A stretch of 64,000 nt of DNA. Origin: Opitutaceae bacterium. GTDB taxonomy: Bacteria; Verrucomicrobiota; Verrucomicrobiia; Opitutales; Opitutaceae. The stretch spans positions 1-64,000 of the forward strand of contig JANQSC010000049.1 of the NCBI GenBank assembly GCA_028284235.1, written 5' to 3'. Below are positions 3,582-29,917 of the stretch, piece by piece (position 1 is the first letter of the stretch; each line of letters starts with the position of its first letter). The translations under genes were made by a program, and so were the position numbers. Below the pieces are notes generated by a model that was given only the letters and a program-made list of their open reading frames with translations, did not search any database and was not told the origin of the DNA.

Positions 3582-3846
3582 GGAGATTGAGGCGCTGCAA
3601 CAGCTCGTTGTACTTGTTGAGATCGTTCTTCTTCAAGTAGTTGAGCAGTTTGCGGCGGCGGCTCGTCATGGCGAGCAGTCCGCGGCGCGTGTGAAAATCC
3701 TTGCGGTGGGCGCGAAGGTGTTCGGTCAAGTGGTTGATCCGGGCGCTCAGGAGAGCGATTTGGACGTCGCATGAACCGGTGTCTTTATCGTGCGTTTTGA
3801 ATTCGCCGATGATGTTGGTCTTATCGATTGCTTTGCTTTGTGGCAT
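3574..3846 (-). CDS. rpsO: 30S ribosomal protein S15
   Basis: [75 protein letters not shown]; start placed at internal Met of the ORF. Confidence 0.95.
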
Positions 3847-4078
3847 GTGTGTTTTTCTGATCACGGAATCTGTGATTTCTCGCTTGAGAAACCGCTAGCC
3901 AAGCGCGTCGCTGAGCTAGCCGCTGTCGTCCGGGATTTCCCGGACGTTCCGAGGAGGAGAGCGGCGTTGCCGCAGACCTCTAGCGTAAGGGGGACCACAA
4001 GAATCGATTTTTTGCCCAGCGCAATACAAAAATGGGCGGAGAGCCGGGTCTTTTGCGGGCTCTGAATCGAATGCCGCC

Positions 4079-4732
4079 TCAGGGATTTTGCATCCGCATG
4101 GCGAATCGGACGAGTTCGCTGGGGCTGGAGAGCTTGAGCTTGGATTTGATGCGGGAGCGGTGCGACTCGATGGTCTTGATGCTGATGTTCATTTGCCGGG
4201 CGATTTCCTTGTTGTCCAACGATTGTCCAATGTGTTGGACGATAAGGAGTTCGCGATCGGATAGTCGTTCGAACTGGGCGTGTTTCGATTCCGCTTCGTG
4301 TCCGCCGATGCGATTGAGAACGTGGGCTCGCATGGCGTTGCTGAGGTGAAGATGGCCTCGAGAAACGAGGTCGATCGCGGTCATCAGGTCGCTTATCGGA
4401 TCGCATTTCATGTAGTACCCTTTGGCCCCGGCCCGTAGGCAACGTTCCGCGAAAAGCGTCTCGTCGTGGAGGGTCGCAACGAGGATGGCGCTGCGAGAGA
4501 ACCGTCGTTTCAAGTCCTTGAGGGTTCCGATGCCGCGGCTCTTGTCGACGAGGATGTCGATTACGATGACGTCGGGGACGATGTCGACGCGTTCCAGCTC
4601 GTCGAGCGAGGCACAGCATCCGGAGAGAGTGAAGTCGCTGGAATCGCGGAGCAGACGACCGAGGCCGAGGTGGCAGACGGGTTGCTCGTCGATGAGGAGG
4701 ACTTGCTTTTTGTGAGTTGATTGTAGTTCCAC
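4079..4732 (-). CDS. NarL/FixJ-type response regulator (REC + LuxR HTH)
   Basis: VLLIDEQPVCHLGLGRLL receiver start; LSDRELLIVQHIGQSLDNKEIARQMNISIKTIESHRSRIKSKL LuxR HTH. Confidence 0.88.
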   Translation of the reverse strand: MELQSTHKKQVLLIDEQPVCHLGLGRLLRDSSDFTLSGCCASLDELERVDIVPDVIVIDILVDKSRGIGTLKDLKRRFSRSAILVATLHDETLFAERCLRAGAKGYYMKCDPISDLMTAIDLVSRGHLHLSNAMRAHVLNRIGGHEAESKHAQFERLSDRELLIVQHIGQSLDNKEIARQMNISIKTIESHRSRIKSKLKLSSPSELVRFAMRMQNP

Positions 4733-23652: not shown

Positions 23653-25365
23653 ATGGCACTCGGAAGACTGCAAGGCGCAATCGTCGAAAATCTCGCGGGA
23701 CGGTCCTTTCTGGACTCGGAACAAGTCGAGGCTCTGAAATCGCACGAAACGGATTTGAACGGCAGTGCTTTCGACGAGCTGCTTCTCGGCGAATACCGTA
23801 TCACGCTCCACCAGCTCAACACAGCCAAGGCTAGCGCATACGGAGTGGCACCCATCAATGTAAAACGCCTGGCGATCCACAGAGGCACCTGGGAAATCTT
23901 GGACCAGGAATTTTGCGTCGAGAACTCTGTGGTTCCGGTCAGCAACGTCGGCAACTACATCGTAGTCGCGTTTTCCAACCCGTTCGAACTTTCGCTGTCG
24001 ACCAAGATCGCTGAAATCAGCGGCAAGCAAGTGATCACCCTTCTCAGTCCAGAGCAGGAGATCAAGGAAGTACTCAATCAGGACGCCAGCCCAGCCAAAG
24101 AATCGCAGTTCGACGACGTGATGGAAGCGGTGGGCGTCGAGTTCGGTACGGGTGAAGATGGCGAAGAAGACGAAGTCGACGACGAAGAATCCGCGCCGAT
24201 CATCCAGCTCGCGAACCGAATCATCGAGGACGCTTACGGACTCGGCGCGAGCGATATCCACATCGAGCCGCAAGAGAAAGAGCTGATGGTGCGTTACCGG
24301 GTCGACGGAGTCTGCCAGGAGAAACTGCGGCTTCCCACGAAAGTAGCGGGTTCGTTGATCGCGCGCCTCAAGATCATGTCGAATCTCGACATCGCCGAAC
24401 GACGACTCCCTCAGGACGGTCGTATCGTTTTCAAGCAATTTACTCGCAAGAACATCGACATCGATCTGCGCGTGTCGACCGCCCCGTTGAATCACGGGGA
24501 AGGGATCGTCATGCGTATCCTCGACAAGCAAAAGTCGACCATGCCGCTCCCGGCTCTCGGGTTCGCCGAAGAGAATCTCGCCCGCTACCGCGAAACCATC
24601 AAGCAGCCCTACGGGATGATCCTCCACTGTGGTCCGACGGGATCTGGAAAGTCGATGACGCTCTACTCGGCGCTCAACGAGATTAGCAATCCAGGAATCG
24701 TGATCCGCACTGCCGAGGACCCGATCGAATACACGCTCAACGGAATCAACCAGATGCAGATGAATCGTCAAATTGGACTGACGTTCGCGAGTTCGCTCCG
24801 GGCATTCCTGCGTCAGGACCCGGACATCATCCTCGTCGGGGAAATCCGTGACACGGAGACTGCTAATATCGCCGTGGAAGCCGCGCTTACTGGCCACTTG
24901 CTCATTAGCACGCTCCACACCAACGACGCTCCGGGGACGATCGCCCGTCTGACGGACATGAATATCGAGCCATTCATGATTTCCTCGTCGCTCCTGTGCG
25001 TTTGCGCTCAGCGATTGATGCGTCGTGTTTGTAAAACTTGTCGTATTCAGTATGAACCTACAGGTCGCGAGCAAGAGATTCTCGAGGCGGCTATCGGGTG
25101 GAGCGGAACGATTTTCAAGCACAACCCCAAGGGCTGCCCTCGTTGCAACGGCACGGGGTACAAGGGGCGAATTGGTATCCACGAATTAATGATCACCGAT
25201 GACGAACTCGTCCATGGGATCAACAAGGGCAAAGAAACCGCCGAGATTAAGAAAATCGCGATGAAAGGCGGAATGAAAACGCTCCACCAGGACAGCTTGC
25301 TTAAGGTCAAGGATGGCGTATCCACGTTGTCGGAAGCGCTTTCGACAGTTCCGATCGACATGTAG
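23653..25365 (+). CDS. Type II secretion / type IV pilus assembly ATPase (GspE/PilB family)
   Basis: Walker [54 protein letters not shown]; zinc site CKTC...[18 protein letters not shown]. Confidence 0.94.
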
Positions 25366-26124: not shown

Positions 26125-27000
26125 TTATCCATTTCGTAAAACTAAGTCCATAATCGTGTAAACGAGCTTGGATGCGGTGAAGTCGGACGCGTGATGCGAT
26201 TCACTCGGAGCGAGCTCGACCACATCGGCGCCCACCACGGTCCGGCCATGGATCGCCTTTTCGATTCCTTCGATGGCAGTATACCAGTCGAGACCGCCCG
26301 GCTCGGGGGTGCCCGTGCTCGGCATGATAGAGGGATCTAGCCCGTCGACATCGAAGCTCAGATAAATGTTCTGGGGAAACGACGCGGGGAGCAGTGTCTC
26401 GGGGAGTCCAGAGCTGGCGATTTCCTTTGCGTCCAGAAAGGAGATCGAAGCGGCTTCACGTGTCTCGACTTCCTCTACGCAAAGCGAACGGACGCCGACT
26501 TGGAAAATGGGAACTCCCAAGTCGCGAACGCGTTTCATGACGCACGCGTGGCTGAAGGGATTGCCTTGATAGGAGTCGCGCAGGTCGGCGTGAGCGTCGA
26601 ACTGAACGACCCCGAAGTCGACTCCCAGCGACTTGAGAGCGCGAATCGGAGCGAGCGAGATCGAGTGTTCCCCTCCGAGGGTAATTGGGAATCTGCTCAG
26701 TTTCAAAGAGCGTGTGATCGATTCTTGAATACGATCGAGCGTACCCTCGGCATCTTCGTCGCAATCGACGAACGGGGCAGTATAGATGCCAGCGTCGCCT
26801 GGCGTGGACCCGTTCAAGTAGGCCTCGAGCTGAGTTGAAGCGCGTAGTATGGCGGCAGGGCCGTTTGCGGTGCCGCCGCCGTAGGAGACGCTCGTTTCCC
26901 AGGGGACGGGAATAATGTGGAAGTAGGCGTCCTCGGGATTGCTTGGTTCGAATTCGTCCGAATGAAATGGAGGGATACCGTTGTTGGTTGGTTGGGGCAT
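26125..27000 (-). CDS. speB: Agmatinase / ureohydrolase family
   Basis: GGEHSISLAPIRAL, VVQFDAHADLRDSYQGNPFSHACVM, YLSFDVDGLDPSIMPSTGTPEPGG metal-binding motifs. Confidence 0.92.
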   Translation of the reverse strand: MPQPTNNGIPPFHSDEFEPSNPEDAYFHIIPVPWETSVSYGGGTANGPAAILRASTQLEAYLNGSTPGDAGIYTAPFVDCDEDAEGTLDRIQESITRSLKLSRFPITLGGEHSISLAPIRALKSLGVDFGVVQFDAHADLRDSYQGNPFSHACVMKRVRDLGVPIFQVGVRSLCVEEVETREAASISFLDAKEIASSGLPETLLPASFPQNIYLSFDVDGLDPSIMPSTGTPEPGGLDWYTAIEGIEKAIHGRTVVGADVVELAPSESHHASDFTASKLVYTIMDLVLRNG

Positions 27001-27014
27001 CGGTTTACTTTGAT

Positions 27015-28178
27015 TTAGGAAAGCCGGTTTTTATAGTCCTGATAGTCAAACTCTCGAACGACTTCCAGTCTTTCGTCGACGGGATCCCAAGTTACTATTG
27101 AAGGATGCTTGATTCCGTTGAATGTCGTCGTTTTCACCATTGTGTAGTGGGCCATATCCAGAAAATGGATTCGATTTCCCGGTTTGAGAGGCTCGTCAAA
27201 CGAATAGTCGCCGATTACGTCGCCGGCGAGGCAGGAAAGCCCGCCGAGTTGATAGTTCCATTTTCGCTCGCCGGGCAGTCCCGCTCCGTAGATCTCCGGA
27301 CGGTAGGGCATCTCTAGCGTGTCGGGCATGTGGCAAGTCGCGGATACGTCGAGAATGGCGATAGCGCGTTCATTGTGGACGACATCCAGCACGGTGGCCC
27401 TGAGGACTCCGGTGTTGATGGCGATGGCTTCTCCGGGTTCGAGATAAACTTCGAGATGCGGGTAGCGCGCTCGGAATTGGGAGAGTGCGGAAACGAGACA
27501 CTCTCGGTCGTATTGCGGGCTAGTGATGTGGTGGCCGCCTCCGAAGTTCACCCATTTCAGTTCGGGAAGCCATTTACCGAATCGCGACTCGAAGGCATCG
27601 AGGACGCGCTCGAATGTATCCGCGTTTTGCTCGCACAGGGCGTGGAAATGAAAGCCGTCGACACCCTCGAGCGATTGCCCGTCAAACGCTTCGACGGGAA
27701 TGCCCAGTCTCGAACCGGGGGCGCAGGGGTCGTAGAGAGACACTTCGACTTCCGAGTAGGCCGGGTTGACGCGGAGTCCGCGAGAGATCGCTCTCCCAGA
27801 ACGGAGCAAAGCGTCTCGGTGCGCTTCGAATTGGGCGAATGAGTTGAAGGTGACGTGGTGGGCGATCGGAGCGATTTCCTCGATATCTTCCCGGGTGAAT
27901 GCCGGCGCGTAGACATGGACTTCCTTGCCGAAATACTCAGCCCCGAGGAGGGCTTCGTGGGGTCCGCTCGCGCAAACGCCTGCAAGCGATTCTGAGAGGA
28001 TCGGGAAGACACTGTGCATCGCGAAGCCTTTGAGCGCGCAGAGGATTTTGCAGCCGGTGGTTCGTTGAACCTCTTCGAGAGTCTCCAGATTGGATCGCAG
28101 TCGTTGAATATCGACTACAAAGCAAGGCGACGGCGCCGAGTCGGGTAAGGCTGGATCGTAATGGACGATATGGTCCAT
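27015..28178 (-). CDS. nspC: Carboxynorspermidine decarboxylase
   Basis: ILCALKGFAMHSVFPILSESLAGVCASGPHEALLG; GFHFHALCEQNADTFERVLDAFE; WVNFGGGHHIT; YLEPGEAIAINTG; CLAGDVIGDYSF. Confidence 0.93.
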   Translation of the reverse strand: MDHIVHYDPALPDSAPSPCFVVDIQRLRSNLETLEEVQRTTGCKILCALKGFAMHSVFPILSESLAGVCASGPHEALLGAEYFGKEVHVYAPAFTREDIEEIAPIAHHVTFNSFAQFEAHRDALLRSGRAISRGLRVNPAYSEVEVSLYDPCAPGSRLGIPVEAFDGQSLEGVDGFHFHALCEQNADTFERVLDAFESRFGKWLPELKWVNFGGGHHITSPQYDRECLVSALSQFRARYPHLEVYLEPGEAIAINTGVLRATVLDVVHNERAIAILDVSATCHMPDTLEMPYRPEIYGAGLPGERKWNYQLGGLSCLAGDVIGDYSFDEPLKPGNRIHFLDMAHYTMVKTTTFNGIKHPSIVTWDPVDERLEVVREFDYQDYKNRLS

Positions 28179-28193
28179 CTCAAATCTCCCTAG

Positions 28194-28220
28194 TCCTAAT
28201 CATAATCATACTCTTAATCC
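28194..28220 (+). repeat. Left inverted repeat of IVS-like element
   Basis: tcctaatcataatcatactcttaatcc. Confidence 0.85.
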
Positions 28221-28636
28221 TAATCATCATCGAATAGAAAGTTGCGAATTCCATAAGTCGCCTCCGACTCCCTCACTAAATCACCGTGCCCAAATCTCTC
28301 AATTAATCCGTGGAGCATGCGAACAATGACCAGTAGCATTTGTTTTCCTTCGGAAAGATCTTCTTCAGTTCGAAAACCTTGAGCAATGATCACATCGATG
28401 CACGCGGCGGACTCTACCGCGGACCCCTGGGCGATTTGAAAGAAACGTGAGCGATCTTTGGGCGATCGTTTCGCATTCCCCTCAGCGATGTTTAGCGGAA
28501 TGCTGATCGATGCGCGGTCGATCTGAGCGCGGATCGCTGAAGATCCTTCAGGAAGTCTGGTCTGCATTTTCTTAGTCCAAGCAACGAAATCGATCGATTT
28601 CTGGTAGACCTCTAGTTTTTCGTGAGAGAATGCCAT
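28220..28636 (-). CDS. Four helix bundle protein (23S rRNA intervening-sequence protein family)
   Basis: FSHEKLEVYQKSIDFVAWTKKMQ...IRAQIDRASISIPLNIAEGNAKRSPKDRSRFFQIAQGSAVESAACIDV matches the family pattern (RAS.SIP.NIAEG...RF..IA.GSA.E). Confidence 0.9.
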   Translation of the reverse strand: MAFSHEKLEVYQKSIDFVAWTKKMQTRLPEGSSAIRAQIDRASISIPLNIAEGNAKRSPKDRSRFFQIAQGSAVESAACIDVIIAQGFRTEEDLSEGKQMLLVIVRMLHGLIERFGHGDLVRESEATYGIRNFLFDDD

Positions 28637-28657
28637 ACGAGTTGGGAATACGGATTC

Positions 28658-28684
28658 GGATTAAGAGTAGGATTATGATTAGGA
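28658..28684 (-). repeat. Right inverted repeat of IVS-like element
   Basis: ggattaagagtaggattatgattagga; reverse complement matches left repeat at 26/27. Confidence 0.85.
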
Positions 28685-28711: not shown

Positions 28712-29917
28712 TCAGTCGCGAAGGGGTTCCGGTTTCGCGTCGAGAAATTGCTCGGTCCAAGGTAGGCCGCGTTCATTGAGTTCTGCCATGAAGGGGTCTG
28801 GGTCGAATTGCTCGACGTTGAAGACGCCTTTGCCGGTCCACTTTCCAGTTAGGAGCATCATGGCGCCGATCATGGCAGGGACTCCAGTCGTATAGGAAAC
28901 TGCCTGGGAGTTGACTTCGGCAAAGCACTGCTCGTGGTCGCAGATGTTGTAGATGTAGTAGTGTTTTCGTTCCCCGTCTTTGCGCCCGTCGACAACGCAG
29001 CCAATGCAGGTGCGTCCTTGGGTCGACTCGCCGAGCGATCCGGGATCAGGGAGGATTGCTTTCAAAAACTGCAGCGGGACGATTTCCTGCCCTTGATAGA
29101 CGACGGGGTCGATCCGCGTCATTCCTACGTTTTCCAATACGCGTAGATGGGTTAGGTACTGTTCCGAAAACGTCATCCAAAAACGCATACGCTGGATTTC
29201 AGGAAAGTGCTTTGCCAGCGATTCCATCTCCTCGTGGTACATGAGGTACATTTCCTTGGGACCGATTCCCTCGGGAAAGTCGAATGAGCGATGAACGGAC
29301 AGGGGTGGTGTTTCTTGCCATTGCCCGTTTTCGAAATAACGCCCGTTGGCGGTGACTTCGCGGATATTGATTTCCGGATTGAAGTTCGTGGCGAAGTGCT
29401 TGCCGTGGTCGCCGGCATTGCAGTCGATAATGTCCAGAGTGTCGATCGAATCGAAATGGTGTTTGCGCGCGTAGGCGGTGAAGATATTGGTCACTCCAGG
29501 ATCGAATCCGCATCCAAGCAGAGCGATTAGTCCAGCGTCCTCGAATCGCTTTTGATAGGCCCATTGCCAATGGTATTCAAATTTGGCTTCGTCGATGGGC
29601 TCGTAGTTGGCCGTATCCATATAGTGGACGCCGGCTTCGAGGCAGGCGTCCATTATGGTGAGATCCTGATAGGGGAGGGCCACGTTGATCACGAGATCGG
29701 GCCGGTAGTCGCTCAGTAAAGCGACAGTTTCCGCGACGTTGTCGGCGTCGATCTCGGCGGTCGCGATTTCACGGTCAATTTCCGCGGCGATCGCCTCGCA
29801 TTTGCTCTCGGTGCGGCTCGCGAGGCAAATCTCTGAAAACACCTCGGGGATTTGGGCGCATTTATGGGTGACGACGCGGCCGACGCCTCCGGCTCCGATA
29901 ATTAGGACCTTGCTCAT
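28712..29917 (-). CDS. Saccharopine dehydrogenase family / carboxynorspermidine synthase (CANSDH-like)
   Basis: VLIIGAGGVGRVVTHKCAQIPEVFSEICLASRTESKCEAIA; ALLGCGFDPGVTNIFTAYA; adjacency to nspC. Confidence 0.9.
   Translation of the reverse strand: MSKVLIIGAGGVGRVVTHKCAQIPEVFSEICLASRTESKCEAIAAEIDREIATAEIDADNVAETVALLSDYRPDLVINVALPYQDLTIMDACLEAGVHYMDTANYEPIDEAKFEYHWQWAYQKRFEDAGLIALLGCGFDPGVTNIFTAYARKHHFDSIDTLDIIDCNAGDHGKHFATNFNPEINIREVTANGRYFENGQWQETPPLSVHRSFDFPEGIGPKEMYLMYHEEMESLAKHFPEIQRMRFWMTFSEQYLTHLRVLENVGMTRIDPVVYQGQEIVPLQFLKAILPDPGSLGESTQGRTCIGCVVDGRKDGERKHYYIYNICDHEQCFAEVNSQAVSYTTGVPAMIGAMMLLTGKWTGKGVFNVEQFDPDPFMAELNERGLPWTEQFLDAKPEPLRD

Follow-up and report, generated by a model that had tools for sequence, protein, structure and literature searches.

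What does a gene for a small helical protein do between two inverted repeats in the middle of a polyamine operon? The protein belongs to PF05635, a common family whose function is unknown and whose structure has been solved since 2006. The locus lies in the window analysed here, a 64,000-nucleotide stretch of DNA from an Opitutaceae bacterium, and an earlier note made from the sequence alone had read it as a free-standing element, either mobile or acting at the RNA level.

The element and its protein

The whole element covers 491 bp (positions 28194 to 28684, minus strand) and consists of a PF05635 gene enclosed by inverted hexamer arrays. It is preceded by a saccharopine/carboxynorspermidine dehydrogenase-like gene (CANSDH; 28712 to 29917, minus strand) and followed by an nspC-like carboxynorspermidine decarboxylase gene (27015 to 28178, minus strand); an arginase/agmatinase-family gene (26125 to 27000, minus strand) comes next in the polyamine cluster and is mentioned for context only. 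The earlier note had placed the unit between the CANSDH-like gene and nspC, on a strand common to all three and disrupting neither gene, and this is indeed the arrangement. It had also described a 27-bp inverted repeat with 26 of 27 matches whose left copy reaches the stop codon of the ORF; the 27-mer does have a single mismatch, and the TAG stop falls within the left arm. Rather than a single fixed 27-mer, each arm is a run of about five degenerate hexamers (TCHTAM) in tandem. The left arm, downstream of the gene (28194 to 28225, plus strand), is composed of the five TCHTAM hexamers TCCTAA, TCATAA, TCATAC, TCTTAA and TCCTAA, followed by TC, and the right arm, upstream of the gene (28653 to 28684, minus strand), is its inverted copy, so that two arms of 32 nt each are 94% complementary. 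Their pairing score is 26, whereas none of 2000 geometrically equivalent random intervals from the 64-kb window scores above a maximum of 11. No Rfam match was found between positions 24000 and 34000 of the window, and the site is located between two polyamine genes and not in an rRNA gene. There is no obvious target-site duplication at the element, the intergenic DNA of congeners being too diverged for alignment.

The ORF (28220 to 28636, minus strand) encodes 138 amino acids and, as the earlier note had recognized, a four-helix bundle of the IVS/Avd fold family. In profile searches the protein matches PF05635 with an E-value of 6e-24 (84.7 bits against a curated cut-off of 33.8) and TIGR02436 (23S_rRNA_IVP) with 80.6 bits against a cut-off of 24, PF05635 being its sole Pfam match. 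Compared with XCC0516 (2gsc), the AlphaFold model of the monomer (pLDDT 91) matches each of the five chains, with a TM-score of up to 0.93; it also resembles 2rld, the second solved PF05635 member, and is more remotely similar to Avd of diversity-generating retroelements (4dwl, 8ub7; TM about 0.8), a fold that structure comparison places within solved retroelement ribonucleoproteins. XCC0516 is reported to be a toroidal homopentamer (Lin 2006, as cited in PMC4990558 and PMC10053308). The window protein has no recognized catalytic domain, and movement of the element would therefore need another enzyme.

Gene-free hairpins and empty sites

The earlier note proposed searching for further copies of the repeat, and these exist in abundance. 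The 27-mer has 42 matches in the source genome at no more than three mismatches (reversed control, 0), while four consecutive TCHTAM units with at most one mismatch match 302 times (control, 5). The matches inspected lie mostly in gene-free hairpins, in which two inverted arms surround a loop of 12-48 nt. We examined 37 of these hairpins and roughly estimate the genome total at about 60 or more. All 37 occupy intergenic DNA, many of them no more than 30 nt from a stop codon; both neighbouring genes were called for 36, and at 16 of these they are convergent. The modal arm in the genome is that of the window element, 32 nt or five hexamers plus TC (39/72 arms). Each of the 37 hairpins differs from all the others, and the similarity between the two arms of a hairpin does not significantly exceed that between arms of different hairpins (18.5 versus 17.9, permutation p 0.09), which speaks against a simple MITE copied from one master. 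The loops have nothing in common but a C-rich beginning and a T-rich end. The source genome contains a second PF05635 gene (L002; C13:41974-42288), which lies between inverted arrays of another type, GTGAATN.

The TCHTAM unit has zero copies in the congeners G048 and G078. Since the intergenic DNA of the congeners is not alignable, hairpin sites were compared by gene order. At all seven sites with locatable flanking genes the gap is shorter in the congeners, although some differences are smaller than the hairpin for one congener and an eighth site was alignable only in part: the source gap measures 103 nt versus 21/21 in congeners, 132 versus 26/26/5, 145 versus 36/43/40, 218 versus 125/131/189, 162 versus 8/8/62, 151 versus 89/95/65 and 643 versus 510/508/620. 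At the level of gene order this is strong evidence that the gene-free hairpins represent a lineage-specific gain.

The history of the gene-carrying element is less straightforward. The earlier note had viewed it as free-standing and proposed looking for empty sites in relatives. This holds to the extent that the PF05635 element is absent from all eight orthologous CANSDH-nspC gaps, one of them in a congener, which measure 4-135 nt compared to 536 nt (stop codon included) in the source genome. It is, however, weakened by an occupied equivalent site: the closest protein relative, at 54% identity and in a genome of another genus (G410), is also encoded between CANSDH and nspC (L240) and has arms of the TCHTAA type. 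The site may have gained the element in both lineages, or an old presence may have been followed by repeated loss. Two of the orthologous gaps without the gene (L230 and L228) contain apparent gene-free hairpins of other types, GAAGAAT and AAAGTCAC.

Repeat arrays around PF05635 genes in other bacteria

Packaging between inverted arrays is not a peculiarity of the window. Among 100 genomes sampled from the bacterial family, 82 carry PF05635 genes, with as many as 15 in a single genome. When a strong inverted flank is defined as a pairing score of at least 14 and random intervals from the same loci serve as controls, 62 of 93 PF05635 genes from genomes of the family are flanked (controls, 3/372), as are 46 of 77 in an independent sample that drew on named organisms of many phyla (controls, 3/308). 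Strong inverted flanks accompany 60-67% of the combined sample of 170 genes and about 1% of controls; by the same test about a third of the genes have none. The earlier note had named a repeat always absent around homologous genes as the outcome that would count against it, and the flanks found here are the opposite. The arms are short tandem arrays, mostly with period 7 and within a range of 6-8 nt, and their units vary widely (AGTTGAG, AGTAGCG, TAAGCNN, TCAGCNN, AGGAGTC, GGGAATC, GTGAATN and others).

Several sites recur. In Xanthomonas, Luteimonas and Dokdonella the gene lies between accB and accC, names that we assigned by reading the encoded proteins, within inverted GGGAATC/GGGATTC arrays, and the site is thus retained in three Xanthomonadales genera; in five such loci (L124, L125, L126, L127 and L128, positions about 3950-4420) the last arm touches the accC start codon or ends a few bases short of it. 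Elements of the AGTAGCG type occupy one conserved site in six loci (L059, L067, L077, L079, L084 and L088), where, as read in L059, the downstream gene appears to be gyrA and the upstream one probably gyrB. Elements with unrelated repeat units are found in different phyla at an apparent dTDP-sugar (rfb) operon (L034, L037, L039, L050, L053, L082, L090, L097, L099, L110, L129, L130, L134 and L150; the operon was read in L150). That this cross-phylum site might be 23S rRNA was ruled out by the lack of Rfam matches and by the rfb proteins of L150. One of these loci (L034; G027:C122:12882-14712) contains a pair of PF05635 genes separated by 1.5 kb, one of which is interrupted by a stop codon, possibly as a result of tandem duplication and decay. 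Of 38 loci with codirectional flanking genes, 32 have the PF05635 gene on the strand of the operon, which would agree with its being expressed from host operons. Phage are unlikely to be the main vehicle, as only 11 relatives were found among 2.9 million viral contigs. In three viral contigs (L307, L310 and L311) PF05635 genes lie within short-repeat arms, some of them heptameric, and in L311 the arms, of ACGTTCA units, are identical across 33 nt.

The dispersed unit is that of the resident gene in each of the three cases in which we tested this, with 10-14 genomes per pattern search. The 302 TCHTAM matches of the source genome compare with none in the other genomes searched, the two congeners and 11 more, except for G017, whose five matches are essentially all perfect TCTTAA tracts. 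GGGANTN occurs 314 times in Xanthomonas, 138 times in Luteimonas and 0-6 times in other genomes, and GTTGANN 112, 35 and 25 times in three genomes with a GTTGANN flank at their PF05635 genes and 0-8 times elsewhere. High counts of a unit were, in all three tests, confined wholly or overwhelmingly to genomes in which a PF05635 gene bears that unit. Repeat period likewise follows the protein. In a tree of 132 proteins, built from a short alignment with a quick method, the 27 period-6 elements of the window protein's subfamily form one clade with a support of 100 that spans several genomic sites and several families; one more period-6 call (L097) falls outside it. Mapping period on this tree takes 7 label changes compared to 36.3 when labels are shuffled. 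At common sites, units diverge while arms stay matched: at the best-sampled one, arms within one element match better than arms across orthologues (median 18 versus 9), a contrast that is biased upward by the choice of best-matching segments and to which unit homogeneity within a locus contributes.

A proposed two-component repeat system and its relatives

We consider it reasonably probable that these features reflect a two-component system, with a protein that binds the repeats flanking its own gene as well as, in trans, the repeats of gene-free copies spreading alongside it. According to this proposal, a four-helix-bundle protein of a homopentameric family, encoded between two inverted arrays of about 4-5 degenerate repeats of 6-8 nt, would bind the repeats on single-stranded or hairpin nucleic acid, DNA or RNA, formed from the arms, perhaps with one repeat unit per subunit of the ring. 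It would act in trans on the gene-free arm-loop-arm copies, and these would spread with it through intergenic regions much as REPINs do with RAYT, albeit with an unrelated protein. A ring holding one unit of 6-8 nt per subunit could account both for the link between period and protein lineage and for the frequency of five-unit arms in the source genome; in the published Xanthomonas arrays four units are commonest (PMC4692102). Binding and mobility are what we infer from the architecture and from the match between unit and gene, and the lack of any identical pair among the hairpins counts against the proposal insofar as it is unlike recent copy-and-paste from one master. Moreover, long-kept sites such as accB-accC and the species-conserved repeats of Xanthomonas would fit a resident function as well as a parasitic one.

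A resident function is central to the alternative that the protein is a domesticated regulator, which would bind hairpins near stop codons and control RNA stability or termination while its own arms autoregulate its expression, the repeats having expanded by selection or slippage and not by mobility. We regard this as unlikely. It is in keeping with the intergenic hairpins, often close to stop codons and in many cases between convergent genes, with the positional conservation of Xanthomonas repeats (PMC4692102), with the long retention of an essential-operon site and with arms that stay matched within a gene-carrying element as units change between orthologues. Tolerance of insertions predicts intergenic placement too, however, and the complete absence of TCHTAM copies from both congeners, the extra length at seven hairpin sites and the presence of up to 15 PF05635 genes in one genome all speak against it. 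Less probable still is a conventional REP/REPIN or MITE family that owes its mobility to a Y1 (RAYT) or IS transposase and carries the PF05635 gene as a passenger, a reading to which we give very little credence. The repeats are palindromic, dispersed and intergenic as it would require, and the source genome has three weak Y1_Tnp matches; but the loci of these matches bear no TCHTAM arrays, which speaks against a RAYT partner, unit and period track the PF05635 gene, and identical copies are lacking among the 37.

The earlier note had favoured an element whose transcript would fold around the ORF and could be excised by RNase III as in rRNA IVS. The corresponding alternative is a free-standing IVS with mobility at the RNA level via a reverse transcriptase. 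Its appeal lies in a protein family shared with the ORFs of rRNA IVS, in a terminal stem that is also present in the predicted RNA fold (z -2.7), in the operon-strand orientation of the gene and in the Coxiella IVS, which has heptamers and a terminal stem as well (PMC4990558). The pattern of arm mismatches points the other way: read on the sense strand, A.C mismatches outnumber G.U pairs by 118 to 55 (p 2e-6), and a conserved sense-RNA stem predicts the reverse. The excess is driven by period-7 elements, with an upstream-arm A opposite a downstream-arm G position 78 times and the reverse 24 times, and is absent from the period-6 group alone (13 versus 10); as selection near the start codon could also yield such a bias, the argument against a sense-RNA stem is suggestive only. 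Many gene-free copies are, moreover, situated between convergent or divergent genes, and a reverse-transcriptase partner is made unlikely by the lack of any RVT_1 match in the source genome, which is 97% complete, in G003, in G052 or in Xanthomonas, all of them repeat-rich. On balance an excised IVS at this locus seems to us distinctly improbable.

With the two-component system as our preferred reading, we put forward tentatively, and with more doubt than confidence, a broader one: that free-standing PF05635 genes and orphan intergenic repeat families of 6-8 nt could form one system across many phyla, in which a pentameric, non-catalytic ring protein with unit-reading subunits and a lineage-set repeat length would spread itself and gene-free hairpins without a known transposase or reverse transcriptase, the rRNA IVS being a special case. 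The family itself, rRNA IVS with heptamers and a stem, individual repeat families and the logic of RAYT/REPIN were already known. We found no report linking a PF05635 gene to such repeats in the open literature, subscription journals being mostly outside our coverage, and within that literature the general packaging of free-standing PF05635 genes in inverted short-repeat arrays, the match between dispersed unit and resident gene in the genomes tested and the agreement of period with protein clade are new. The heptamer repeats GGGAATC and TAACTGA were published without a known partner, and a repeat-binding protein has been called for (PMC4679880); for several bacterial repeat families that are still orphans, the PF05635 protein is a good candidate partner. 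The link also provides a testable function: a given protein is expected to bind its own unit, with a difference in register between proteins of period 6 and period 7.

Several described systems resemble the one in the window. The GGGAATC repeats of Xanthomonas, which number 183-186 per genome, include 70-75 inverted pairs and for the most part persist from one species to another (PMC4692102), are likewise dispersed, often inverted heptamer arrays and flank the PF05635 gene at accB-accC; they were described as G-quadruplex SSRs, in a paper whose main text has no mention of four-helix or 23S genes (PMC4692102). The TAACTGA repeats of Beggiatoaceae are also dispersed intergenic heptamers but are mostly direct, and their authors propose an unidentified repeat-binding protein, which may be the mobile element (PMC4679880). 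In one Phycisphaerae locus (L180, positions about 3700-4110) the arrays on either side of a PF05635 gene consist of TCAGTTN, which is TAACTGA in its reverse-complement type. RAYT/REPIN systems (PMC3116915, PMC2817692) share a resident gene in inverted repeats and many gene-free palindromic intergenic copies; they differ from the window system, in which the protein is unrelated, there is no Y1 nuclease, and tandem arrays of 6-8 nt take the place of a fixed REP sequence. Avd of diversity-generating retroelements (DGR) has the four-helix fold in common, whereas the source genome has no reverse transcriptase. The 23S rRNA IVS with an S23p/IVP ORF, as in Coxiella and Leptospira (PMC4990558), is similar in its PF05635 protein, its unit of about 430-490 nt, its terminal inverted repeats with a stem of about 28 bp and its heptameric repeats just upstream of the ORF; in Coxiella, tandem heptamers (GACAGAT) precede the S23p start codon and the terminal stem is 28 bp (PMC4990558). 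Unlike it, the window element is located in a protein-coding operon, has period-6 arrays on both sides and is accompanied by many dispersed gene-free hairpins. As rRNA IVS, RAYT/REPIN and DGR each fail a tested defining feature, we class the window element with none of them. The parallel with the rRNA IVS is nonetheless closer than expected, and through the link between PF05635 proteins and their repeats the rRNA IVS comes to be seen as a single instance of a more widespread repeat system.
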